Below, piece by piece: positions 1 through 15,449 of a DNA stretch of 21,037 nucleotides. The notes beneath the pieces were generated by a model. The model saw nothing but the letters and a program-made list of their open reading frames with translations, was not told the origin of the DNA and made no database searches. The first letter of the stretch is position 1. Every line of letters starts with the position of its first letter. The translations under genes were made by a program, and so were the position numbers. Source of the stretch: a virus; IMG/VR virus record IMGVR_UViG_3300021061_000053, positions 1-21,037 of that record; one strand, given 5' to 3'.

Positions 1-1290
1 AGACCAGCAGAAATTCCCTCCCATCATTGAATGCTTACGTCCTATCTTAGTTGGTTTGCAGTAGTAGTAATCTCGTCCTTCTACGTTGCGAGTTTTAAGC
101 TCTATGGCTGGCGCATCGTTGCTTTCCTCTGACACTTCGGGTATACCTTCACCAACCAGAGTTAAGCTAGAAAACTTGCTGCTAACACCTCCAGCAGTAC
201 AATCAAAGCTATCAGACCTTAGCACGTCAACCATCAGTCCTTTCCTCTTTGGTTGAATAACTACGGGTTCGATAACTGGAGCATCAGTTATGATTTGGTA
301 GTTAAACACCCCTACAATTGCTGGCATCTCTTCTTCTATCTTGGTAACTGCTACGGCTTTATTAGAGGGTATCTTGAGGTTGATAGAAGGTGGTACTAAG
401 GCAACGTATCGAGCATACTTGTGACCTTGAGGATCAACTAAGATTGTTTCTCGGTTTGGCGCTGATACCGCAACGCAGAGGGTGCATTCAACTTCTTTCC
501 CGTTTATTGTTACCCTGTCACAGCCGCCCTTACCAGCTATCCAGGAGTAATGTGTCATTAGATTATTGGTAAAGCGATCATAGTTGGTGGTAGATAACTC
601 AATCCATTCTGTAACTTTACATTGTTCAGTATAAGATTCCCCCTTTAGAACCTGTACTTGATACTCTTCCAGTGTGTTGTTTTTGTTAATGTTGGCGAAT
701 GTTCCTTCAACTGAGAACGAAACTTTGGTAATTTTCTCAGGTTGAATTTCTTTTGCGGCGTTTAGAGCTTCTTGTGCTTTAAATTCTGCTTTCTCTAGTT
801 TTTCTTTGTTTGCAAATTCCTTTTCGCGTCTTTCAGCTTCTGTTTGAGTTTTGACGGAAGCAAAACTATTATATTTTCTAGCTAAACTTGCATACTTGTA
901 AACCTCGTTAATGTCGTTACCACTAAAGTATGCGTTGCCTTTGCTGGTTGCCTCTATTGTCACTCCGTCATTCTTAGCGTCGGTATAATAGCCTTTCACA
1001 TACTCCAAAACTTCTTCCAAGTATTCTTTGGTGAATAAGCGATTTGTGTGGATGAAGTTTAATCGAGTTTCTACAATCTCCCCATTAAAGTTAACGGGTA
1101 GTCTTGAATTGTTCGCATATCCTCGGTATTGCTCAACAATCTCTACTATTTCAGCTTCGCTCGCGCCATCTGTCCAATCAATCTCGATGGTGTAGAAGTC
1201 AGAACGTACTGAAAATTTAATGGATGGATAAAGAGCTTTTAGGTCTTTGCGTACTTGCTTGGCAACTTCTTTACATTCTACTAGGCGCAT
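1..1290 (-). CDS. Partial LPD29-like phage protein, C-terminus off the window
   Basis: An uninterrupted minus-strand frame starts at the ATG at 1290 and is still open at base 1, giving 430 visible residues. The first 60 residues resemble the large polyvalent protein-associated domain LPD29, known from polyvalent proteins of phages and conjugative elements: a basic helix (KQVRKDLKAL), then KFSVRS, then a strand ending in WTDG and an acidic helix. A charged, probably helical stretch rich in K, E and A follows at about residues 157-195, then a region with several cysteines and no family I recognise. The start is supported by GAGAGGAAA just upstream and by a promoter copy at 1323-1354. The role is unknown. 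The N-terminal assignment is from memory of the motif and is fairly likely; the coding call itself is very firm. Confidence 0.85.
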   Translation of the reverse strand, partial: MRLVECKEVAKQVRKDLKALYPSIKFSVRSDFYTIEIDWTDGASEAEIVEIVEQYRGYANNSRLPVNFNGEIVETRLNFIHTNRLFTKEYLEEVLEYVKGYYTDAKNDGVTIEATSKGNAYFSGNDINEVYKYASLARKYNSFASVKTQTEAERREKEFANKEKLEKAEFKAQEALNAAKEIQPEKITKVSFSVEGTFANINKNNTLEEYQVQVLKGESYTEQCKVTEWIELSTTNYDRFTNNLMTHYSWIAGKGGCDRVTINGKEVECTLCVAVSAPNRETILVDPQGHKYARYVALVPPSINLKIPSNKAVAVTKIEEEMPAIVGVFNYQIITDAPVIEPVVIQPKRKGLMVDVLRSDSFDCTAGGVSSKFSSLTLVGEGIPEVSEESNDAPAIELKTRNVEGRDYYYCKPTKIGRKHSMMGGNFCWS

Positions 1291-1322
1291 CTGGTTTTTC
1301 CTCTCTTTGTTTCCTCTAAAAT

Positions 1323-1354
1323 CATTATCACCTACTAGATTATAATTTGTCAAG
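1323..1354 (-). promoter_or_regulatory. Repeated phage promoter element, copy A
   Basis: On the minus strand this reads TTGACA, an 18-base spacer, then GATAAT, a close match to a sigma-70 promoter, about 34 bases before the start of the 1290 gene. The same 32-base element recurs at 1736, 4789 and 6214, and even the spacer (AATTATA at one end, AGGTG at the other) is largely kept. Conservation beyond the two boxes suggests a shared regulator as well as shared polymerase recognition. Confidence 0.8.
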
Positions 1355-4303: not shown

Positions 4304-4759
4304 TTATTCCATCGATTCTAGTTCTTTTATCAAGTGCAGAGCATCCATAAACTGACATTTTGCTATGTAATGTTCTAGTATCCAGCCTGGTAGTTCTGCA
4401 CGATGTTTGATTTCTGATTTAGCAATTTGGTTGCCTAGTGTGATCGCGTCCTCAAGACTTACACCATTATTAATTAAGTTTTCAACAGCTAAAATAATAT
4501 TACTGTTTAAAGCTATAGCGATTGCGGTGTTCTTGGTTACGGGATTATTTCCATCTTCTGGTGTTTGGTTGCAGATCTGATTTAGTAGGTATTTGTGAGC
4601 GATGCTTTTAGAGAATACTTTTCTAATGTCTTTGATGCTATTTAGTTCACTTCGGATGCTTAACCCATTGGTTGTGTATACCATGTAACCATTTACGGGA
4701 TAACCAGGATATTTTTCAACTTTCTTAATCGACTTGATTTGTTGTATTGCTGTGGTCAT
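4304..4759 (-). CDS. Unknown protein (151 residues)
   Basis: I do not recognise this family. The sequence looks globular: a strand-rich first third (PGYPVNGYMVYTTNGLSIRS) followed by helices, with a stretch NSNIILAVENLINNGVSLEDAITLGNQIAKSEIKH that looks like a small helical domain. No metal motif, signal peptide or membrane helix is visible. The start is supported by GGGAAGAGAG directly before the ATG and by promoter copy C 30 bases upstream. It is the third gene of the four-member promoter group. Its end lies 22 bases before the shared terminator at 4260. Confidence 0.8.
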   Translation of the reverse strand: MTTAIQQIKSIKKVEKYPGYPVNGYMVYTTNGLSIRSELNSIKDIRKVFSKSIAHKYLLNQICNQTPEDGNNPVTKNTAIAIALNSNIILAVENLINNGVSLEDAITLGNQIAKSEIKHRAELPGWILEHYIAKCQFMDALHLIKELESME

Positions 4760-4788
4760 CTCTCTTCCCCATTTTCTCTCAACAATTT

Positions 4789-4820
4789 CATTATCACCTA
4801 CCTAACTATAATTTGTCAAC
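4789..4820 (-). promoter_or_regulatory. Repeated phage promoter element, copy C
   Basis: Minus-strand TTGACA (4814-4819) and GATAAT (4790-4795) have an 18-base spacer. This is the most diverged copy, changed mainly in the middle of the spacer. Its leader (GAAATTGTTGAGAG) matches that of copy D. It lies in the intergenic region shared with the divergent terS-like gene. Confidence 0.78.
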
Positions 4821-4867
4821 CCTTAAATATAAAAATCTATCAAACTGTAAATAAAACTATAATCACT

Positions 4868-5317
4868 ATGATCGGCAACTCCTATAAATACACCCCAGAA
4901 CTAAAGCAAAAACTCTGCAAACTCTTACGGGAAGGGAACTTCGTTAAAACCGCTTGTGATGCTGTTGGCATTTCCACCCCCACCTACTACCTGTGGCAGA
5001 AGGAGAGTGAAGAAGGCAACCCAACCTTTAAAGACTTCGCTCATGATGTGAAGAAGGCGATCGCTGATGCTGAAACTGAAGTTGTTGGCATTCTCAAGCA
5101 ATTGGCGCTAGGTGATGAAGAAGATCCGCCAGATTTCAGAGCTATTCAGTTTTACCTAACTCGCCGCCATCCACACTGGAACGAGAACAAACGCATTGAG
5201 ATTGAGGTCAATGACAAGATGGAAGAAATCTTCGATAAAATTCAAGGCGTGTTACCAGAAGAATATTATAATGCAGTTCTCTCCACGCTTGGCGAGATGG
5301 ATGAAGAGGATGAATAA
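4868..5317 (+). CDS. terS: Terminase small subunit-like DNA-binding protein
   Basis: The 149-residue protein carries a helix-turn-helix near the N-terminus (residues about 24-45: FVKTACDAVGISTPTYYLWQ), a helical middle (KKAIADAETEVVGILKQLA) and an acidic C-terminus ending EMDEEDE. This matches phage terminase small subunits, which bind the packaging site and hand DNA to TerL. I chose the ATG at 4868 because the longer open frame back to 4739 runs through promoter copy C and gives a low-complexity hydrophobic peptide. No Shine-Dalgarno is seen; TATAAT at 4858-4863 lies only four bases before the ATG, so a leaderless message is possible. A related HTH protein of other function cannot be excluded. 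Confidence 0.75.
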   Translation: MIGNSYKYTPELKQKLCKLLREGNFVKTACDAVGISTPTYYLWQKESEEGNPTFKDFAHDVKKAIADAETEVVGILKQLALGDEEDPPDFRAIQFYLTRRHPHWNENKRIEIEVNDKMEEIFDKIQGVLPEEYYNAVLSTLGEMDEEDE

Positions 5318-5318
5318 T

Positions 5319-5342
5319 GAAAAAGCCCTCTATTTGAGGGCT
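5319..5342. terminator. Terminator between terS-like and the 5363 gene
   Basis: AGCCCTC (5324-5330) and GAGGGCT (5336-5342) pair around 5 bases. The T-run is best on the minus strand, ending the 6183-to-5363 unit. The plus side (GGTCTATTTTATTT) may also end terS transcription. The stem is identical to that of the terminator at 1401. Confidence 0.8.
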
Positions 5343-5362
5343 GGTCTATTTTATTTAATTCC

Positions 5363-5593
5363 TTATTCCAAATTTCCACTGGCTTTCAATTCATAGACCA
5401 TAGACCAAAACTCTTGTAGACTATTTGCGAGATCCGTTGTTTTTTCGTCTAGCTTTTCTACTTCCACCCAGTTAATCCAAACATCTACAAGATCATCACT
5501 TTGATCTTCTAACCATCGCTTATAAGCCTCTTTAAAAAAGCTAGGTATCTGCGATTCTAGATGGTTTTGAAGTGTCTTAAATGATGTTTCCAT
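5363..5593 (-). CDS. Small acidic unknown protein (76 residues)
   Basis: I do not recognise it. The protein is helical and acidic, with tryptophans spaced through it (KRWLEDQ, VDVWINWVEVEKLDE, EFWSMVYELK), which suggests a small helical bundle or a protein-binding partner. It is the last gene of a three-gene minus-strand unit and its start overlaps the end of the zinc-ribbon gene by 37 bases in another frame, so the two are probably translationally coupled. GGAGAG lies about ten bases before the ATG. The terminator at 5319-5342 follows its stop. Confidence 0.7.
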   Translation of the reverse strand: METSFKTLQNHLESQIPSFFKEAYKRWLEDQSDDLVDVWINWVEVEKLDEKTTDLANSLQEFWSMVYELKASGNLE

Positions 5594-7240: not shown

Positions 7241-9274
7241 TTAAATGAGCATTAGCTGCACTTCCACTATTGGTTCCGGTTCTATCTCTATTACTTCTGG
7301 CTCTGCCTCAATCTTGTCTATTTCCTTCTGAACTTCCTTAAGGTAGAAGTCATAATCGATGTTATAATCTTCAGCCTCAAAGTAATCATTAAACAAAGTA
7401 ACGAAGTATCCCGCCACATAGTCAATGTAATGTGACTCACCATCTACAATCTTGCGCTTTCTCATCCGCTTACCGAAGCTAGCATCCATCTTTTCCTCTG
7501 GCTTAGAAACATAATATCGAACTGTCTTTTGAGTGTCTTCTGCACCCAACACAGTATATTCATGAATTGGCTTCTTGAGGGGTTTACCTGTCTTTCCAAG
7601 TGTCCTGCTAACTCTAGACACATCCTCTATAACATTGGTAAATTGCCCTCCCACCTTCTGACTAGCGCAAAAGTCGTATATATCTTTATGATTGTGGAGA
7701 AATATTAGAGGGTCTGTTCCTTCTAAGAAATAAGCCTGTAAAGCCATTGCCACCACTGGGAATTTATACCCGTTGATTAAGCCGCCTTGGGGAACAAAGC
7801 ATCCTTTAGTCTTAATGCTGCCGTCTATCGTGCGACTCAGGTAGTTGTTAACATCCCTCCTTACATACAATTCATAGTGGGTTTCCTCAAGCTCAAACCT
7901 TGTCACTTTTTCCCATGCCTTATAGATCCTCCTGATGTCTTCTAGCTTGTCTTGCGTACTGTCTACTATTATCCCGTCAGTGTTTGCCGATATTACTGAG
8001 TAGCCAGCTTCTTCTAGGTCTTCCACCAGCATCATAAGCATTAGCTGATTATTTACCGTCACAGCAAAAGTTACTTGGGGATCGAACAACCAGAATGTTT
8101 TTGAGTTAAGTAGCCCATACACAGAATTTATTGCGATTTTAAGTCCAGCTTGAATTACATCACTTTCTTTACTCTCTTTACGTCGTTTCTTGTGGTAGAG
8201 TCGCTGATCAACAATGTCTTTGAGGAGTGGTAGAAATACATTAGGATCTAAATGCTGGGGACATAAATTATTATTTAATATCGCTAGGGGGTATTGCGAC
8301 ATTACGTCGGCATCTAACAGTAATCTATCACCAGTAGCTCTGATAACTGTTGGTTTATCTTCTGAGTGAATACCGCCCAAACCAATAGAGTAGGTGGTTC
8401 CTTTGAATGTTAGCTTAGGAATATCGCACTCGTATTTATCCCTTGCTGGTGTTGAATCTATCTTTTTAATGACTTTGTTCTTCAGATCTGAGAGAAAGGC
8501 TTGCAATTCCTGAGTTTTAAACTTTATGTAAGGGTAGATGATATCAACCATCCAGATATCATCACGCTCAGTTTTACTCTGCTTAAACTCTTTAAAAGCC
8601 TCATTGCTCATGCTAGCTTTTTCTTGATACCACTTATTCAGAAGTATCTTAGCGATCGCTGAGTCGCTGGCACTATGTAACTTAGCGTTAAATAGAGAGG
8701 ATAAATCAGCCCTCATGTTCAGTTCGCCTTCTACAGCCTCCAGAAGCTTTAATGTAACTTCAACGTCATTCTTGTTATAGTCTAGTAACGTGGGTTCGTC
8801 TTCGGGTTTGATTTCGTCCGTATAGTGGAATGGGAGATCCTGAACTTTAGGATATTTCAGATTAACTCCCACGCCTTTGAGCGAGATAACATTGTAACCA
8901 GCGCGAATGATCTCAAGCAAGTCATAAGACCGACTGAAAGACTTAGCACTATTCTTAAAGACATTCCACCCCTCAATACAACTTTGAGCAAAAGCATAGA
9001 TGGCTTCCACAGTTGCTTGGGGATTACGACTAATAAACTCTATTACTCCATCATCGAAGTTAGAGTTGTTGAAGCCAATTAGATAGCGATCGCGTATTGT
9101 GGCTAGAATCTTCTCACGGTCATTCCGGCTTTCACTAATTACAAACTGCTTAAAACAATCTGATTGATTTTGAGCAATTCGGTTAAGGCTAGCAAAAGTG
9201 ACGCTAAAGAAATTGGGGTAAGTCTCAACGTCATAGACCAGCCCCAATTTGATAATATCTTCAGGTAATTTCAT
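7241..9274 (-). CDS. Family B DNA polymerase with 3'-5' exonuclease and terminal clamp motif
   Basis: This is the phage replicative polymerase. The exonuclease has Exo I YDVET (D15, E17), Exo II NNSNFD (N70-D74) and Exo III YNKND (Y166-D170). The polymerase has motif A DVMSQYP (D323-P329), motif B KIAINSVYG (K379-G387) and motif C ANTDG (N431-G434). In motif C the usual DTD is NTD; the second Asp is kept and this variant is seen in other phage polymerases. Only about 50 residues lie between motifs A and B, so the TPR1 insertion of protein-primed polymerases is absent. The last residues are QLMLI, like the beta-clamp-binding pentapeptide QL(S/D)LF and the QLGLF end of E. coli Pol II. GAGAGAGGG precedes the ATG. 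It is the last gene of the operon starting at 11464. Confidence 0.95.
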   Translation of the reverse strand: MKLPEDIIKLGLVYDVETYPNFFSVTFASLNRIAQNQSDCFKQFVISESRNDREKILATIRDRYLIGFNNSNFDDGVIEFISRNPQATVEAIYAFAQSCIEGWNVFKNSAKSFSRSYDLLEIIRAGYNVISLKGVGVNLKYPKVQDLPFHYTDEIKPEDEPTLLDYNKNDVEVTLKLLEAVEGELNMRADLSSLFNAKLHSASDSAIAKILLNKWYQEKASMSNEAFKEFKQSKTERDDIWMVDIIYPYIKFKTQELQAFLSDLKNKVIKKIDSTPARDKYECDIPKLTFKGTTYSIGLGGIHSEDKPTVIRATGDRLLLDADVMSQYPLAILNNNLCPQHLDPNVFLPLLKDIVDQRLYHKKRRKESKESDVIQAGLKIAINSVYGLLNSKTFWLFDPQVTFAVTVNNQLMLMMLVEDLEEAGYSVISANTDGIIVDSTQDKLEDIRRIYKAWEKVTRFELEETHYELYVRRDVNNYLSRTIDGSIKTKGCFVPQGGLINGYKFPVVAMALQAYFLEGTDPLIFLHNHKDIYDFCASQKVGGQFTNVIEDVSRVSRTLGKTGKPLKKPIHEYTVLGAEDTQKTVRYYVSKPEEKMDASFGKRMRKRKIVDGESHYIDYVAGYFVTLFNDYFEAEDYNIDYDFYLKEVQKEIDKIEAEPEVIEIEPEPIVEVQLMLI

Positions 9275-9297
9275 TGTTTTCCCTCTCTCTTAAACGT

Positions 9298-9462
9298 TTA
9301 AAGCTCTTCTTCTGGTATGTCTGGGAAGTCATAATGACCAATCATGTTGTTTAAGCTGTCTTGAAGCATTCTATTTTCGCTTTTCTCCCTTTCAAAACTC
9401 AAACCTAAAAGAAAGAAAAATCCCCAAGACATAACCAGTAAAATTCCTAAAATAAACCCCAT
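9298..9462 (-). CDS. Tiny membrane protein (54 residues), last of the cluster
   Basis: An N-terminal hydrophobic helix (residues 2-22, rich in F, L, I and G) is followed by a charged cytoplasmic-type tail with FEREKSENR and an acidic end (DIPEEEL). GGAGG lies nine bases before the ATG, within the end of the previous ORF, whose TAA directly abuts this ATG. The stop is 23 bases before the polymerase start. The length, start signal and coupling make it the most convincing of the five mini ORFs. No family is known to me. Confidence 0.72.
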   Translation of the reverse strand: MGFILGILLVMSWGFFFLLGLSFEREKSENRMLQDSLNNMIGHYDFPDIPEEEL

Positions 9463-9540
9463 TTAATCTGCCTCCTCAAAATCAAAACCGAATAAAAAGA
9501 TAAAACCGAAATACACAATGATTATTAACAAAATATCCAT
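9463..9540 (-). CDS. Mini membrane protein (25 residues)
   Basis: Nearly the whole peptide is one hydrophobic helix (MDILLIIIVYFGFIF and onwards), closed by the acidic end DFEEAD, which would favour one orientation in the membrane. GAGGAT is seven bases before the ATG. The ATG overlaps the previous stop as TAATG, and its own TAA abuts the next ATG. The end codes EEAD using the GAGGAG that also serves as ribosome-binding site for the 54-residue gene. Confidence 0.6.
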   Translation of the reverse strand: MDILLIIIVYFGFIFLFGFDFEEAD

Positions 9541-9611
9541 TACAAATCCTCAATAACCTTAACTATAACAACTGTGATACAAATGATTAAGACGATATAA
9601 ACTACTTCCAT
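9540..9611 (-). CDS. Mini membrane protein (23 residues)
   Basis: A single hydrophobic helix of V, I and L residues (MEVVYIVLIICITVVIV) ends in KVIEDL. Its ATG is preceded by AATTGGAGATTTCTG, almost the same 15 bases that precede the 20-residue gene, which suggests tandem duplication of this kind of unit. The stop overlaps the next start as TAATG. Confidence 0.58.
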   Translation of the reverse strand: MEVVYIVLIICITVVIVKVIEDL

Positions 9612-9630
9612 CAGAAATCTCCAATTACTT

Positions 9631-9693
9631 TTAATACAATATCAACACAAGAATCATTAAACATACAGCCACAACAAGGAATACTAAACCCAT
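9631..9693 (-). CDS. Mini membrane protein (20 residues)
   Basis: This is the shortest ORF of the cluster: a 20-residue peptide with no charged residue, all V, L, I, M, A, F, C and G closed by a Y. GGAG lies eight bases before the ATG. The start overlaps the previous stop as TAATG. Chance hydrophobic ORFs of this size are common; the call rests on the ribosome-binding site and on the run of coupled neighbours. Confidence 0.52.
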   Translation of the reverse strand: MGLVFLVVAVCLMILVLILY

Positions 9694-9779
9694 TAGAAAT
9701 CTCCAATTAAAAAGTGAATAACTAAAAGGTAGCCACCAACAAATAACACAACTACACTAACCCCTATCAATGTCGTCAT
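9693..9779 (-). CDS. Mini membrane protein (28 residues)
   Basis: The ORF begins 23 bases before the end of the 86-residue membrane gene, in another frame. The ATG closely follows GGAGGA. The peptide is one helix (MTTLIGVSVVVLFVGGYLLV and onwards) with a single His inside and GDF at the end. Its stop overlaps the start of the 20-residue gene. The ribosome-binding site is close to the ATG (three bases), so initiation may depend on translation of the upstream gene. Confidence 0.5.
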   Translation of the reverse strand: MTTLIGVSVVVLFVGGYLLVIHFLIGDF

Positions 9780-10017
9780 CTTCCTCCATACCAGCACGAG
9801 TTTTAGTAAACTTGATTGAATCGTCTTTCTCGAATCTCTCTAGAATGGTTGTTAGTTCATTAAGTGCTAAGTTAAAAACATTTAAGAACAACAAACCACC
9901 TGGGGATATAAAGTCTTTACCCTGCGTTGCCAAACCTGCGGTTGCAGCTAGCGTTACACTCAAAACAGCATTCCAAAAAAGAGGGGTAGCAAGCAAATTA
10001 CGGTCTTTTCCGCGCAT
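9757..10017 (-). CDS. Small membrane protein, holin-like layout (86 residues)
   Basis: A basic N-terminus (MRGKDRN) precedes two hydrophobic segments: residues about 10-31 (ATPLFWNAVLSVTLAATAGL) and about 38-58 (SPGGLLFLNVFNLALNELTTIL). A charged tail follows (ERFEKDDSIKFTKTRAG, then EEDDDIDRG). Two helices, small size and a charged tail are typical of class II holins, but the second segment is only moderately hydrophobic and no endolysin is adjacent. It follows the kinase gene by 34 bases in the same operon. Holin is a guess; a small membrane protein is well supported. Confidence 0.75.
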   Translation of the reverse strand: MRGKDRNLLATPLFWNAVLSVTLAATAGLATQGKDFISPGGLLFLNVFNLALNELTTILERFEKDDSIKFTKTRAGMEEDDDIDRG

Positions 10018-10051
10018 ATAAAAAGCCTAATTGATTACACCCCAGTTTGAT

Positions 10052-10681
10052 TTAGTTGTTAGCTATATTGAGAGAAGACTCGTAAAGGCTGCGTAATCGA
10101 GAGATTGTAGGGCAACCTAGTTCACCCATACAAATGTCTAAGTCGCGGAACAAATTACTGTCATACTCGTTACTAACTACACATCCTCTATCGGAGATTT
10201 GCATTAAAGTATCATCAATTTCAGCCAGATTAATATCAGAACTTTCTTCTCGTTCTCGGTTGCCGGAAATATTGATAAAACTTAATTCGGCATCATGCAG
10301 AACTACCATTGCTGCAATCGTCTTCACTTCTTCTAAATTACGGATGCTTTGAATTGAAATAGTTCTAGCTCCTTCGTTAAGGAATAGTCTTTCAATTTCA
10401 CTAGCTAGCATCTTTGCACCAAAGTTAGAATCTCTTACTCGCCAGAAATGAAAGCAATCAACTAACATCTGCTGATATGTACAGGTAGAATCTTCTGGTG
10501 TTTCAGCCTTCACGTCCTGGTCATCTAGTTCCCCAGCCTTTAGTCCATAAATATTTTCTAGAAAGGCTTTAAGCGGCTTGATAGGGGAAGTATTAGGGAT
10601 GCCGTAAACTTCTTGGAGATAGTCAGCAACGGTAGATTTGCCAGAATTAGTAAGTCCAGTGATAGCGATGATTTTTTTCAT
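10052..10681 (-). CDS. Deoxynucleoside monophosphate kinase-like protein
   Basis: The N-terminus MKKIIAITG leads into a clear Walker A (G9-x4-G14-K15-S16-T17). What follows fits phage dNMP kinase-type P-loop proteins: KPLKAFLENIYGL, a region with FHFWRVRDSNFGAKML (residues about 87-106), and later ISGNREREESS that may be the lid arginines. Such enzymes phosphorylate dNMPs to dNDPs for phage DNA synthesis. I place the start at the ATG at 10681; the frame extends to a TTG at 10696 but without a clear ribosome-binding site. It overlaps the upstream gene by 35 bases in another frame. It lies in the polymerase operon beside a deoxyribosyltransferase-like gene. Confidence 0.82.
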   Translation of the reverse strand: MKKIIAITGLTNSGKSTVADYLQEVYGIPNTSPIKPLKAFLENIYGLKAGELDDQDVKAETPEDSTCTYQQMLVDCFHFWRVRDSNFGAKMLASEIERLFLNEGARTISIQSIRNLEEVKTIAAMVVLHDAELSFINISGNREREESSDINLAEIDDTLMQISDRGCVVSNEYDSNLFRDLDICMGELGCPTISRLRSLYESSLNIANN

Positions 10682-11105
10682 GATTGATAATTTCAAAAAT
10701 TGCTTGATTTAGATTGCTAGACTGATTACCAGCACAGAGTAAGAACGGATGTAGCTTAAACTCTTCTGGAATATTGAAGATAAAGAGATCTTTACCTGAG
10801 CCAAACCCGTAACCCAACTCAAAGAGAGTTCCGATCATAGGTTTAGTCTTTAAACCTTCAAAGTTGATCAGAATATAATGAGAGGTAAGAATGTCTGTAA
10901 TATCTCGGAAGAATATTTCATCAGCTTTGATATCAACATTCTGGTCGTTAATAACTCCTACAGAGTCTAAAAACTCTTTCCCTCTCATTGGGTCACGAAC
11001 CATTAAACCCGCTGCTTGTAGCTTCTCTGTGGCTTCCTTGCGCCAGCCAGTTGCTTCTTCGTAAGTTAGACCATTAATAGAACCTGCTAAGTAAACGGTT
11101 TTCAT
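10647..11105 (-). CDS. Nucleoside 2-deoxyribosyltransferase-like protein
   Basis: The sequence opens with MKTVYLAGSINGL, the first strand and loop of the nucleoside 2-deoxyribosyltransferase superfamily. It has FFRDITDI (D68, D71) and the signature GTLFELGYG with the candidate catalytic E96 followed by a glycine-rich loop. At 152 residues it has the normal length. Enzymes of this fold exchange or cleave bases from deoxynucleosides or deoxynucleotides; some phage members hydrolyse or remodel nucleotides. Substrate cannot be read from sequence. Its ATG overlaps the stop of the 34-residue ORF (ATGA), and its end overlaps the kinase gene. Confidence 0.82.
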   Translation of the reverse strand: MKTVYLAGSINGLTYEEATGWRKEATEKLQAAGLMVRDPMRGKEFLDSVGVINDQNVDIKADEIFFRDITDILTSHYILINFEGLKTKPMIGTLFELGYGFGSGKDLFIFNIPEEFKLHPFLLCAGNQSSNLNQAIFEIINHEKNHRYHWTY

Positions 11106-11206
11106 TGGTATATGTCAAGAATTACTAGAAAAGGGGAGAAGACGGCAAGCAAAACTAGAATGGTTGTGAGAAATGCTTGTTCTCGAATCATATATAGTCC
11201 AAACAT
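11102..11206 (-). CDS. Mini membrane protein (34 residues)
   Basis: The TAA of the upstream 85-residue gene directly abuts this ATG, and its TGA overlaps the next ATG, so it fills the space between two good genes exactly. GAGG lies four bases before the ATG, within the end of the upstream gene. The peptide has a short charged start (MFGLYMIREQ) and a hydrophobic helix (FLTTILVLLAVFSPFLVIL). It resembles in size and form the mini proteins at 9463-9779. Confidence 0.6.
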   Translation of the reverse strand: MFGLYMIREQAFLTTILVLLAVFSPFLVILDIYQ

Positions 11207-11464
11207 TTAGCCTCGCTTGTGACTAACTAATTTCCAGCCCTCTTTCAAAAGCCTCTGGTAGACAAACCATCCGTGTGAATGATTTAGAGGTTCTACCTTG
11301 CATCCAGACTTTTCGATAACCTCGTCTAACCTAATCTCATTAAGCATTCCTAACACGGTGGCATCTGCGTATTGTGGAAAATCTGAGAACGGATAGAACT
11401 TTACATCTCCTTTGGGGGATAGCCAGAGAGCGCCCCCAAACCAAGCCATTTGATTTTCATTCAT
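11207..11464 (-). CDS. Small unknown protein (85 residues), first gene of the polymerase operon
   Basis: I do not recognise it. It begins with a tryptophan-rich strand region (AWFGGALWLSPKGDVKFYP), has a central acidic helix (LNEIRLDEVIEKSG) and ends with SHGWFVYQRLLKEGWKLV. The composition suggests a small folded soluble protein. A TATAAT box at 11487-11492 and two AT-rich near-palindromes lie just upstream. Downstream it runs without a gap into the 34-residue ORF. Confidence 0.72.
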   Translation of the reverse strand: MNENQMAWFGGALWLSPKGDVKFYPFSDFPQYADATVLGMLNEIRLDEVIEKSGCKVEPLNHSHGWFVYQRLLKEGWKLVSHKRG

Positions 11465-11486
11465 TGTTTAATCCTTGCTTTTATAT

Positions 11487-11531
11487 ATTATATCCTAAAT
11501 TATAAAATTTAGACTAAATTATAAAACTAGG
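11487..11531 (-). promoter_or_regulatory. Promoter and tandem AT-rich operator-like repeats
   Basis: A perfect TATAAT (11487-11492 on minus) lies 23 bases before the 85-residue gene. Where the -35 box would be are two 18-base units in tandem with a 19-base period (11495-11512 and 11514-11531), each beginning CTAAATTATAAAA; the first is a near-palindrome with arms CTAAATT and AATTTAG. No good -35 box is seen, which suggests an activator-dependent or repressed promoter. Confidence 0.5.
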
Positions 11532-12861
11532 ATAAAAAAATAGGACACCTCACAGTAAAGCCTCGCTTTTCGTCTAAGAGGCAGAACGCTTGCTGTGGTT
11601 CCTCATAGGGAAAGCCGCAGTGTGCAGCATAAGAGTTAAAGCCAACCAGAGAGCCATTAACCACAGCATTTCTCATAAAATGCAAGCTATGGAAATGCCC
11701 TAAGAAATCCATATCTCCTTGAATTGCTTGATTTTCCTTTAGAATATATTTGCTTAAAGGTACGATAAAGCCCCCAACACCCCCGCCATATTTGATTGCA
11801 TCCCCATGATGGAACCGAAGCTTCTTACCATACACATCAATATAGTTATGGTAAGCTCCAGCGATAGAGAAAGCTAAACGCTCATCCCTTCCCCTGTAGT
11901 AATTAGCAATCGTGTGGTAAAGCAGATTCTCAAGGCTGTTCTGAGTGCGTGTCCCCACTTTAGTTTTGCGCTGCATTGGAAACCTCCCATGATTCCCGTC
12001 AGAACAAACTATAATAATTTCCTTCAGTTCTGAGTCTTCCCGTAGGTAGTCAATGCCGCCGATCAGAAGCTCTTGGGCAAACAAGCTTGCTTCCACTGGC
12101 GAGAAAGCATTAGTCTCTAGGTTTTCCTCACGGAGGTAGTTGTTGATAATGTCTCCGCCGATCCACAAGATAAGGCGAGGAATATCAACGTCACGCCTGT
12201 TAAGTCTAACCACTTTCGCCAAATTACGAAAATAAGCTTTAGCTCTAGCTTCGGCAATCTCTGGGTTATACTCATTTAGCCCATGAGTTTCTGCTAGAGT
12301 AACAACTTCCTCAATGTGCCAATCACTAGCTAGGCTGATAGCTGTGGCTTCACCTCTCTCGTTGTCTGACTCACTGGTGTAGATTTTAAGCGGTATTGGG
12401 GATTGGTTGATATTGCCTAGGAAATTAAGCCGATCTTCTAGTTCTTCAATCTTGTCAAGCGCTGATTTATATTTCCTCCCCACATCTAGGCATTGTTGAG
12501 CAAGCTTTTTAATTTTCCTGTCACTATCTAAATCTGGTGGCTCTATCAGTTCCCACTCTTGCTTATCCTTGTTCCAAGTGGCACCAGCGTAAGTGACAAG
12601 GTTTAGTGCATCTGATGGCTTGAGGTCTAGCTCATCTGCAATGGCAGATAGTGGCTGACTTCCCTTCTTAAATAACTCAACAACTTTCTGTGTGATTTCC
12701 TGGTAGTTGGGGATTTGAGCAACAGCCTGTTTAAGTTTCTCAGGAGAGTTACGAATGTTGGTTTCACAATCTGACACGCAATACCAGCGATCGCCATTAA
12801 GCTTTTGCAGCTTTTCCACCCCTACCGATTTTCTACAATCTCTACAGCTTCTAGTTTCCAT
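11527..12861 (-). CDS. Calcineurin-like metallophosphoesterase with zinc ribbon and HTH
   Basis: The 444-residue protein has an unusual three-part layout. Residues 6-32 hold a zinc ribbon (C6xxC9 and C28xxxC32). Residues about 68-92 form a helix-turn-helix (QPLSAIADELDLKPSDALNL). After a coiled segment, residues about 174-444 form a metallophosphoesterase with all expected metal motifs: DWH (D180, H182), GGD (D237), GNH (N290, H291), HHGD (H351, H352) and GHFH (H389, H391). This set is complete, so it should be active. The fold is shared by SbcD/Mre11 nucleases and by phosphatases. The DNA-binding parts and its place just downstream of the clamp gene favour a nucleic-acid substrate. It starts six bases after the dnaN-like stop, so the two are cotranscribed. 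Confidence 0.9.
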   Translation of the reverse strand: METRSCRDCRKSVGVEKLQKLNGDRWYCVSDCETNIRNSPEKLKQAVAQIPNYQEITQKVVELFKKGSQPLSAIADELDLKPSDALNLVTYAGATWNKDKQEWELIEPPDLDSDRKIKKLAQQCLDVGRKYKSALDKIEELEDRLNFLGNINQSPIPLKIYTSESDNERGEATAISLASDWHIEEVVTLAETHGLNEYNPEIAEARAKAYFRNLAKVVRLNRRDVDIPRLILWIGGDIINNYLREENLETNAFSPVEASLFAQELLIGGIDYLREDSELKEIIIVCSDGNHGRFPMQRKTKVGTRTQNSLENLLYHTIANYYRGRDERLAFSIAGAYHNYIDVYGKKLRFHHGDAIKYGGGVGGFIVPLSKYILKENQAIQGDMDFLGHFHSLHFMRNAVVNGSLVGFNSYAAHCGFPYEEPQQAFCLLDEKRGFTVRCPIFLS

Positions 12862-12867
12862 TTTTTT

Positions 12868-13980
12868 TTAGCTCCTTTGTTGAACAGGCATAATTAGGCA
12901 GTTGTAATTAGACTCGATAACCACTGGGGATAATGGCTTCTCACCCTGCTTAATCTTTATTTCCTTGGTTGTTCCTTTTTGTAGAACTTCCAATAAATAA
13001 TGGAGATTAAACGCTAACTTCTGTAAAGAGCCTTTACAACCAACCACTTGCGTAATTACAAGCTCTCTATCGCTATTTAGAACGTCAATCCTTAAACCAT
13101 CATGGATCAGTAGAGTTACAAGAGGTGGGTTGTATTCCTTTTTATCTAAAACTTTAGAGGCTGTCTGGATGACATTTAGCAGGTCTAAGCGGTTGATGAT
13201 GGCTTCATATTTGATATCTGTGGGGATGATACCGAAATATTTTGGGTATTGTCCTTCTAGCAACCTGCTTCTTAACGTTGTCTTAACCTCAACTAAAGTA
13301 AAAAGAATTTCTTCTTTGGTAAAAGTAACTAATAATTCTGAGTCGGATGCCTTTTTCAGAGTTCTCAACAATTCTTCACAGGTTTTTCCAGGAATGGTTA
13401 AACTCTCCAGGTTGGGGAACTCACCATCAAATGAGATGTAGGCTAGTCTGTGTCCATCCGTTGCTGCAAAGTTAATAAGTCCTAAATCAGAAGCATTTAT
13501 ATTCACACCACATAAAACCTGTTTCGTTTCGTCTAGGCTGGTGGCGAAGATTGTTGATTCTAGCGCCTCTATAAGGTTTTTACGATCAGTTAAAAACTGT
13601 TGTGGTTCTACTAGAGGGTCTATTTCGGGTAATTCGTCATCAATTAGCGATAACCTCACGGCGTTGCAATCATCCCCAACATTTAAATTACCCCTTACTA
13701 CCTCTAAAGATATATTTTCACTAGATAGCGCCCTTACAGTATCTTTCAGCTTTTTAGCTTTGGTATAAAACTTTGTATCCTGTAATACATTTGAGATATT
13801 ATTTATTGCTATTGTTAACTCCTGATTTAGGTTAAAACACCTCATGACTAACAACCCTTTCCTACTATCTGTTGTTAGCTCAACCCCTTCTAGAATCTCA
13901 TGTGTGGGTCTTTGAGGGACAATTTTCACGAGCCTGTCAAGTGCTGACAATAGCTGTTTGCGATCGGCTATAATAGTCAT
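12868..13980 (-). CDS. dnaN: DNA polymerase III beta subunit-like sliding clamp
   Basis: The sequence begins MTIIADRKQLLSALDRLVKIVPQRPTHEILEGV, the typical start of a bacterial beta clamp (helix, then the strand VxLxxD). At 370 residues it has the normal length for three clamp domains (about 1-120, 121-250 and 251-370). FAATDGHRLAYI in the second domain matches the conserved TDGHRL signature, and the end CLIMPVQ matches the family's MPM/V terminus that forms the peptide-binding pocket. The clamp is a dimeric ring that tethers polymerases to DNA. An extended -10 box lies upstream. As the window also encodes a polymerase ending in a clamp-binding-like peptide, this clamp probably serves that enzyme. 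Confidence 0.95.
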   Translation of the reverse strand: MTIIADRKQLLSALDRLVKIVPQRPTHEILEGVELTTDSRKGLLVMRCFNLNQELTIAINNISNVLQDTKFYTKAKKLKDTVRALSSENISLEVVRGNLNVGDDCNAVRLSLIDDELPEIDPLVEPQQFLTDRKNLIEALESTIFATSLDETKQVLCGVNINASDLGLINFAATDGHRLAYISFDGEFPNLESLTIPGKTCEELLRTLKKASDSELLVTFTKEEILFTLVEVKTTLRSRLLEGQYPKYFGIIPTDIKYEAIINRLDLLNVIQTASKVLDKKEYNPPLVTLLIHDGLRIDVLNSDRELVITQVVGCKGSLQKLAFNLHYLLEVLQKGTTKEIKIKQGEKPLSPVVIESNYNCLIMPVQQRS

Positions 13981-14005
13981 ATATTAAAATTATAAACACT
14001 ATTAT

Positions 14006-14014
14006 ATTATAGCA
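14006..14014 (-). promoter_or_regulatory. Extended -10 box of the dnaN-phosphoesterase operon
   Basis: Minus-strand TGCTATAAT is a perfect extended -10 box, 25 bases before the dnaN-like ATG. No clear -35 box is seen, as is usual for extended -10 promoters. Confidence 0.6.
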
Positions 14015-14055
14015 TTTTAAGAGGTTATTAGAATTTTCTATCAAAATTGAATAAT

Positions 14056-14069
14056 AGTACCCCAGTACT
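14056..14069. promoter_or_regulatory. Candidate LexA (SOS) box
   Basis: AGTACCCCAGTACT fits the cyanobacterial LexA consensus RGTACNNNDGTWCB at every fixed position and is flanked by T and A that extend the palindrome. It lies 44 bases before the 14114 ATG, just upstream of a -10-like TAGAAT (14082-14087), and about 75 bases upstream of dnaN. It could place the 14114 gene under host SOS control. Confidence 0.6.
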
Positions 14070-14113
14070 ACTAAAAAGGACTAGAATAGAAGGACAATTA
14101 TTAGGGGGTATCT

Positions 14114-14488
14114 ATGATCACACTTGTGCTTTTACTTTATGGGTATACCCTGAACGTCAAAGAAATAACTGATGGCTACTGCGGTGAGATTGTAGATTGT
14201 CGTGAAAATATCATAGTAGATTCAAAATTCCAAAATATCTTAGAGGCTGAGAAATGGTTTGAATTGAAAGTTTGCAAGCTCTTTGTAAACGAAAATAAAC
14301 ATCCCACAGTTTTATTCTGCGGGATTACCGGAGATATAATTCACAGAAACCTAGAAGCTGGGAAGTATTCGGATCAGAGTATCTATGAGTATTTCGATAG
14401 AATACGCTCAACAAATGAAAAACCCCCCATCGAAAACTACAATGTAGAGATTATGAAAGGAGGTTTTATTCTTATGTCGTTTAAGTAA
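14114..14488 (+). CDS. Unknown protein, possibly SOS-regulated (124 residues)
   Basis: I do not recognise it. The protein is strand-rich with a short hydrophobic start (MITLVLLLYGYTL) too short to be a confident signal peptide. The middle holds ILEAEKWFELKVCKLF, probably a helix, followed by strands (TVLFCGITGDII). Three cysteines are scattered without a metal pattern. AGGGGG precedes the ATG. Its promoter region contains the LexA-like box at 14056. It is divergent from dnaN and convergent with the 15449 regulator, whose stop is only four bases away, so antisense overlap of the two transcripts is likely. Confidence 0.75.
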   Translation: MITLVLLLYGYTLNVKEITDGYCGEIVDCRENIIVDSKFQNILEAEKWFELKVCKLFVNENKHPTVLFCGITGDIIHRNLEAGKYSDQSIYEYFDRIRSTNEKPPIENYNVEIMKGGFILMSFK

Positions 14489-14492
14489 ACAC

Positions 14493-15449
14493 CTAACTTG
14501 TTCGGTTTAATGCCGCCTTTAACTCCTCGACACTCTTTAGCTTGTTAATTGGATCGATGATTGGGTGTGTATCACTCATCCAACTAACAACATCAAACAA
14601 GTATGGTATCAAACCCATCATCTTTGATTCTAAAAATGTATACCTGCCATCTACACCATCATCTTTAATCATTTCAACGATGGAGTTATTTTCTAATTGT
14701 GCATTTATGTCTGCCTTAGTTATTTTTTGAAGATGGGTTGATATATCAAGCAAAACTTTAAGTCTTGCTCTCTCCTGGTCATTTAGTTCGACAACCTTTT
14801 CTTGGGTATCATTGTCCGTTGAACCATATCGATATTTCAACGCCGTTATTGCTTGGTTCAGCACGTTTATCTCTCGGCTGATTAAATCAATAAGTTCTTT
14901 GGGTGGTATCTCACCAAACATATTAGCTATTTCATTATCAGGCATTGTTTCATTACCTTTAAAGAAATTATAATATGTTCCTTCTGATTTACCAGGGGAT
15001 GATTCAAAGTCAACGGATAAATCAATTTTATATTCTGACTTATTTTTTTTTCCTAAGCCAGAATAAGTTAGCAACTTAGAAGGTGAAAAATCAGCTTCAC
15101 TTAAAAAGCGTTCCCATATATCAGTGGGAACATTGAGCCATTTTCGTATAACCTTCAATTTTGTTATATGAGGCACTTTTGCTGGGTTTCTATCTTTCTC
15201 AAGATATTGGTATACCGTCCCTTGAGAATAATCGAGCTCATCCATAAGCTTTTGTACATCTGCATATTTTTCTTCTACAAGATATACAAAAAGTTGATGG
15301 ATTTTTCTACCGATTAGTTGATGTTTTTCATTGTTGTGGAATCTTTTTTGCCCCTCAGCAACTCTTTCTTTGTGTTCTTCGTCACAAGTTCTAGCTGGTT
15401 TGGCTTTTGGGGGCGTAGTTACAGGTTTCCTCTCTGCTGTCGTGGTCAT
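14493..15449 (-). CDS. Helix-turn-helix regulator (318 residues)
   Basis: A disordered, proline- and lysine-rich N-terminus (residues 1-40) leads to an XRE-like helix-turn-helix at about residues 48-105, with YADVQKLMDELDYSQGTVYQ as the core and a following helix (PHITKLKVIRKWLNVP). The rest contains a long helix (about 190-250, LIDLISREINVLNQAITALK) that may dimerise and a C-terminal domain of unknown type. No S24 peptidase is present, so it is not a CI/LexA-like self-cleaving repressor. GGAG precedes the ATG. Two direct repeats upstream may be its own operator. It is a candidate for the phage's main transcription regulator, by inference. Confidence 0.8.
   Translation of the reverse strand: MTTTAERKPVTTPPKAKPARTCDEEHKERVAEGQKRFHNNEKHQLIGRKIHQLFVYLVEEKYADVQKLMDELDYSQGTVYQYLEKDRNPAKVPHITKLKVIRKWLNVPTDIWERFLSEADFSPSKLLTYSGLGKKNKSEYKIDLSVDFESSPGKSEGTYYNFFKGNETMPDNEIANMFGEIPPKELIDLISREINVLNQAITALKYRYGSTDNDTQEKVVELNDQERARLKVLLDISTHLQKITKADINAQLENNSIVEMIKDDGVDGRYTFLESKMMGLIPYLFDVVSWMSDTHPIIDPINKLKSVEELKAALNRTS

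Follow-up and report, generated by a model that had tools for sequence, protein, structure and literature searches.

A putative clamp-binding tail on a crAss-like phage DNA polymerase encoded with a DnaN-type sliding clamp

Escherichia coli DNA polymerase II (Pol II), a chromosomal repair enzyme of family B, ends in QLGLF and docks on the beta clamp by this terminal pentapeptide (PMC3716654). The gp43 of phages T4 and RB69, also a family B DNA polymerase (PolB), is tethered by a C-terminal peptide to a phage clamp, gp45, which is a PCNA-like trimer. PolB and "replicative clamp" pairs are annotated in the Queuovirinae phages PaMx25, CAjan, and R7M, with a PHROG 1252-type PolB and a PHROG 947 DnaN-like clamp, and in the Septimatrevirus phages DLP1 and DLP2 (gp27/gp28; PMC4559383). 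Lone phage DnaN clamps of cyanobacterial or bacterial type occur in S-H1, RR1-A, Salinibacter phages, and Nodularia phages; the annotations of S-H1, M1EM-1, and 50 kb of RR1-A include no polymerase gene, and such clamps presumably serve host DNA polymerase III (Pol III). The crAss-like/PHROG 1252 PolBs form an EpsilonN-like clade (Kazlauskas et al. 2020, PMC7544198), and the polymerase of crAss-like phage cr10_1 ends in QQLSLWDFS. Here, we describe the whole IMG/VR record IMGVR_UViG_3300021061_000053 (21,037 bases, part of a larger phage genome, referred to below as the window), which encodes a polymerase of this family with a putative clamp-binding C-terminal peptide together with a DnaN-type sliding clamp whose peptide pocket is intact.

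The tail anatomy of the window polymerase is like that of Pol II, which belongs to another PolB clade, and the likeness is probably convergent. The tether proposed here is of the kind found in T4 and RB69, but the window clamp is a DnaN-type three-domain protein and not a PCNA-like trimer. The crAss-like/PHROG 1252 PolBs share with the window both the polymerase family and a clamp-type C-terminal peptide; unlike the window, the other motif-bearing records of this family that were searched whole, L213 excepted (L-numbers are labels of related viral records), carried no phage clamp, and their tails would be expected to use the host's. The pairing with a clamp is like that in Queuovirinae and Septimatrevirus, where the two genes are adjacent, whereas those of the window lie about 3.6 kb apart. 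In these phages the clamp pocket is degenerate, with TDGHRL changed to TNNVxx or TNGAAL and MP to xG (P363 to G), and a canonical QLxLF tail is missing from the polymerases, whereas the window polymerase does have a tail. In type and in its intact pocket, the window clamp is like the lone phage clamps. A sequence-only reading of the window had proposed that a phage using its own bacterial-type clamp with its own PolB would have an unusual replisome. Phage PolBs paired with DnaN-like clamps of the phage's own have been annotated before, and it is the intact pocket together with the tail that is rare.

Polymerase tail and clamp pocket

The features of the two proteins are as follows.

7241-9274, minus strand: family B DNA polymerase, 677 amino acids, exonuclease plus polymerase, crAss-like/PHROG 1252 type (PHROG 1252, PF00136, AlphaFold/Foldseek)
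7244-7297, minus strand: disordered C-terminal polymerase tail, residues 660-677, ending ...EIEPEPIVEVQLMLI-stop (sole stretch of at least three residues with a predicted local distance difference test [pLDDT] score below 50)
7244-7258, minus strand: terminal pentapeptide QLMLI, residues 673-677, putative DnaN-clamp-binding motif (terminal position common to the motifs of relatives)
12868-13980, minus strand: DnaN-type sliding clamp, 370 amino acids, cyanobacterial type (three Pfam domains, PHROG 947, Foldseek, genome matches)
13444-13461, minus strand: clamp pocket loop TDGHRL, residues 174-179, equivalent to E. coli beta 172-177 (alignment to E. coli DnaN)
12880-12897, minus strand: clamp C-terminal pocket strand LIMPVQ, residues 362-367, equivalent to E. 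coli beta 360-365, VVMPMR (alignment to E. coli DnaN)

The assignment of the polymerase to family B, made from the sequence alone, was borne out. The protein matched the PHROG 1252 profile over its full length (E = 7.3e-136 across residues 12-658) and Pfam DNA_pol_B (PF00136) at E = 3.5e-5, and its AlphaFold model (mean pLDDT, 91.7) was recognized by Foldseek as a PolB fold. The catalytic residues D321-x-D323 (DADVMSQYP) and N431-T432-D433-G434 were invariant in the polymerase alignment, as were the exonuclease acidic residues and the catalytic aspartates of motifs A and C, namely, D15, E17, D118, D321, D323, and D433 (alignment A1).

The translation ends exactly in QLMLI, and this pentapeptide lies inside the single low-confidence stretch of the model. 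Compared with the described clamp consensus QL[S/D]LF (PMC3716654), Gln at position 1 and Leu at positions 2 and 4 match; the resemblance noted earlier is thus partial, as position 5 is Ile and not the aromatic Phe. The E. coli Pol II sequence does end in QLGLF, as had been stated. When 25 candidate genes of the window were scanned with a relaxed clamp-motif pattern, QLMLI was the sole match, and the chance that a 5-mer drawn at random from the amino acid composition of the polymerase fits this pattern is P = 6.4e-4. Together, sequence and model support the view that the polymerase ends in a true peptide of the clamp-binding type, held on a disordered tether. A literature search found no description of such a tail in crAss-like/PHROG 1252 polymerases, although priority is not established.

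The clamp, likewise, is complete, as had been claimed. Pfam searches returned all three DnaN domains, with E values of 8.6e-19 (N-terminal), 2.8e-20 (central), and 3.3e-4 (C-terminal, which falls short of the curated cutoff), PHROG 947 was matched at E = 2.4e-53, and the AlphaFold model (pLDDT, 93.6) gave full-length Foldseek matches to DnaN crystal structures with template modeling (TM) scores of 0.85 to 0.90. The pocket was scored at 11 positions (155, 172, 174-177, 242, 247, 360, 362, and 363 in E. coli numbering), including Gly174, Leu177, Pro242, Val247, Val360, and Met362, which are touched by peptides in solved clamp complexes (PMC3716654). All 11 positions of the window clamp were identical to or conservatively replaced from those of E. 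coli DnaN in the alignment; the clamp thus has the pocket whose absence would have told against the proposed binding. Leaving out the rows for L246 and L248, for which the wrong open reading frame (ORF) had been picked, the pocket is also kept in almost every one of 40 further phage clamps; the Queuovirinae/DLP2-type clamps score 4 to 7 (PaMx25, 5/11; CAjan, 6/11; R7M, 5/11; DLP2, 7/11). An intact pocket and a clamp-type tail in one phage make a cognate pair plausible.

The best 80 genome matches to the clamp were all cyanobacterial (80/80), at about 30% identity, in a capped scan that used two patterns, one of which was biased towards cyanobacterial-type clamps. A scan of viral contigs with the single clamp protein gave no match; the closest viral clamps have its DETKQVL and MPVQ signatures. 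The window clamp probably derives from a cyanobacterial dnaN, and, since cyanobacterial DnaN is its closest counterpart, the phage probably infects cyanobacteria, which would supply a host for an uncultivated phage.

Tail and clamp among related phages

Viral-contig scans with polymerase alignments yielded well over 100 homologues. A strict motif, Q-[hydrophobic/H]-x-[LMIF]-[FWLI] within the last 10 residues, was present at the terminus of 68/87 relatives in the first set, compared with 10/800 other ORFs of at least 150 amino acids from the same loci. Ends such as NQLSLF, NQLNLF, PQLTLF, KQLKLF, and GQISLF are scattered over deep branches of the polymerase tree, and the terminal motif recurs although the linker before it cannot be aligned (...EPIVEVQLMLI in the window and ...ENQFIQPMLF in L185). 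The polymerase of L185, the closest relative, is 46% identical and ends in QPMLF, with Phe at position 5. The L185 tail protein, NlpC-like protein, and kinase-like gene upstream of the polymerase appear to match counterparts in the window; the last of these (9107-9724, directly upstream of the polymerase) would encode a P-loop, dNMP (deoxynucleoside monophosphate)-kinase-like protein, judging from its sequence. Ends in Ile or Leu were also found in relatives without a phage clamp (L088, QHKLI; L094, QIQLL). The lineage of L023, L207, and L208, 39% identical to the window polymerase, has no clamp-binding tail.

Several polymerases differed in other ways. Those of L010, L036, L041, L059, L212, L214, and L228, crAss-like enzymes from another branch, end in x-[TN]-L-F-D (NTLFD, GTLFD, or YLTLFD), perhaps a variant clamp-binding end, and those of L022, L195, L200, L201, and L203 have an additional C-terminal region past the usual end. 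In L023 (9965-10768 and 10717-12201), L207 (4211-5014 and 4963-6447), and L208, the polymerase is split into two overlapping ORFs, through a frameshift, a split gene, or a programmed slip.

To place the clamp alongside the tail, 97 polymerase records were searched whole with the PHROG 947 profile; the Pfam model PF02767 found a clamp in 1/46 records and misses Queuovirinae-type clamps. A phrog_947 clamp was present in 13/97. For the 96 records with a usable polymerase, the strict motif and the clamp occurred together in 2 (the window and L213), the motif alone in 45, the clamp alone in 11, and neither in 38. Thus, 45/47 motif-bearing records had no phrog_947 clamp and 11/13 clamp-bearing records failed the strict motif test. 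The motif is undercounted in these figures, since ends such as QKTLF, QQKLF, NYSLF, and crAss-like xTLFD fail the strict pattern. The association is negative by Fisher's test (P = 0.015) and is explained by ancestry, being absent from six independent pairs on the polymerase tree (median P = 0.5). Covariation of the tail with a phage dnaN, which the sequence-only reading had offered as a check, was therefore rejected. That reading would also have been undermined by close homologues that keep the clamp and lose the tail; none was seen, because none of the close homologues has a detectable clamp. The next sisters after L185, L023 (a 111-kb record) and L207, have neither tail nor clamp.

The converse search started from phage clamps. 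PF00136 is too weak for PHROG 1252-type PolBs, and phrog_1252 was used instead; it found a PolB in 0/47 DnaN-bearing viral records (3/3 controls were found). When 45 of the 47 were searched for other polymerases, two PolA and one DnaE were identified. The default for phage clamps is to occur with no PolB, and the default in the PHROG 1252-type family, a tail without a phage clamp, implies use of the host clamp. As 45/47 motif-bearing records carry no phage clamp, docking on the host clamp is most likely what the tail evolved for.

An intact pocket and a tail were found together in two or three of the 97 records. In the near case L056, the clamp pocket scores 10/11 and the polymerase tail is QGSLL. 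The L213 PolB (9926-14998, 1,691 amino acids) consists of a polymerase domain followed by QYSLF and by a long fused extension, helicase-like in its P-loop and DEID-type motifs, and the DnaN-like clamp of this record (4487-5389) has a partly changed pocket (8/11).

Other clamp-like genes were encountered in the surveys. Short DnaN-like proteins of about 210 to 225 amino acids, which match only the center of the clamp profile, occur alongside a tail-less PolB of PHROG 1252 type in L254 (12482-13147), L256 (13451-14212), L264 (7600-8271), and L272 (186-809), and from their sequences could be two-domain "mini-clamps." They match PHROG 3007, labeled "RusA-like Holliday junction resolvase," a label that looks misannotated because a match to PF02767, the central domain of DnaN, was obtained for the L272 protein (E = 1.4e-10). 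In four phage-collection records, two Salmonella genome contigs and two Campylobacter phage records of 174 kb (AFYI01000003.1, AGRM01000003.1, MG065691.1, and MG065686.1), there is a DNA polymerase III beta gene of bacterial appearance; the records are likely host contamination and unsuited to clamp surveys.

Gene neighborhood and interpretation

The clamp and polymerase genes bracket three further recognizable genes on the same strand, forming a replication and nucleotide metabolism cluster.

11527-12861, minus strand: putative exonuclease (PHROG 284, E = 3.2e-39)
10647-11105, minus strand: nucleoside 2-deoxyribosyltransferase-like protein (PF05014, E = 7.3e-9)
10052-10696, minus strand: dNMP kinase-like protein (PHROG 139, E = 1.6e-12)

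The putative exonuclease gene starts 6 bases past the clamp stop, and the two genes likely form one operon. No clamp-loader gene was recognized within the 21,037-base fragment.

The reading that we favor, with a probability of roughly 0.7, is that a crAss-like PolB already equipped to dock on host clamps came to share a genome with an acquired clamp of cyanobacterial type, and that its tail binds the phage clamp also or instead. With QLMLI seated in the hydrophobic pocket that DnaN-type clamps offer to peptides, the flexible C-terminal tail would confer processivity on the polymerase, as QLGLF does on Pol II. In the family as a whole, it is the host that would provide the clamp. In the window phage, a diverged cyanobacterial-type dnaN would have entered the replication and nucleotide metabolism cluster, and the tail most likely now binds its product as well as, or in place of, the host clamp, with the host clamp loader presumably loading it. 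Four observations weigh against this proposal. The Ile at position 5 may weaken binding; the pocket rim differs from that of E. coli, with Lys at Arg152, Gly at Arg246, and Gln at Arg365; five ORFs lie between the clamp and polymerase genes, which are not adjacent; and the 15-kb fragment of L185, the sister of the window on the polymerase tree, encodes the tail without a clamp.

An unlikely alternative is that the tail binds only the host clamp and that the phage clamp is put to another use, such as acting as a decoy, competing with host replication, or giving host Pol III or the neighboring exonuclease a platform. The rarity of phage clamps among motif-bearing records is in keeping with this, as the tail would have evolved with host clamps, and so is the dearth of recognized polymerases in DnaN-bearing viral records (no PolB in 47; two PolA and one DnaE in 45), which indicates that phage clamps commonly act without one; moreover, the clamp gene adjoins the putative exonuclease and not the polymerase. 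However, the pocket of the phage clamp is as complete as host pockets, high phage expression would put this clamp nearest to the tail, and there is no known reason for the tail to tell the two clamps apart.

Far less probable is an insulated pair, in which the Ile end of QLMLI coevolved with the altered rim of the phage clamp (Gly 246 and Gln 365) to shield the replisome from the host clamp. The window tail does depart from the F-ending family consensus, the clamp-bearing L056 is also F-less, and cyanobacterial clamps share only about 30% identity with that of the phage. Ile and Leu ends, however, are found in the clampless L088 and L094 too, Gln 365 (in MPVQ) is present in many cyanobacterial-type phage clamps and so may be a host-type residue rather than an adaptation, and the two cases on which this explanation rests prove nothing. 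That QLMLI is a chance terminus without function is scarcely credible: although the motif is short, degenerate, and missing from the near lineage of L023, L207, and L208, it stands at the extreme C terminus in 68/87 relatives, including the nearest (QPMLF), and has a P value of 6e-4 per random 5-mer.

If the favored reading is extended to the whole clade, crAss-like PolBs would take over the host clamp through a QLxLF-type peptide, and a few lineages (the window and possibly L213 and L056) would add a pocket-intact DnaN, giving a hybrid replisome that is perhaps insulated from the host; we advance this wider scheme tentatively, as somewhat short of an even chance. A literature search found no account of how crAss-like phage polymerases gain processivity, and a family-wide terminal clamp-binding peptide offers a simple and testable answer, namely, that the host clamp is borrowed. 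A clade-wide clamp-docking tail on these polymerases would be a more useful result than the pair in the window. The window itself would be an intermediate between a borrowed host clamp and a private one and, set against the Queuovirinae, in which both the pocket and the tail are lost, would provide a natural series for studying polymerase-clamp coevolution.

Outside the cluster, positions 1-1353 (minus strand) encode part of a large protein that is cut by the edge of the window. Its LPD29 domain (PF18847, E = 1.1e-15) is of a kind known in the polyvalent proteins that mobile elements encode.

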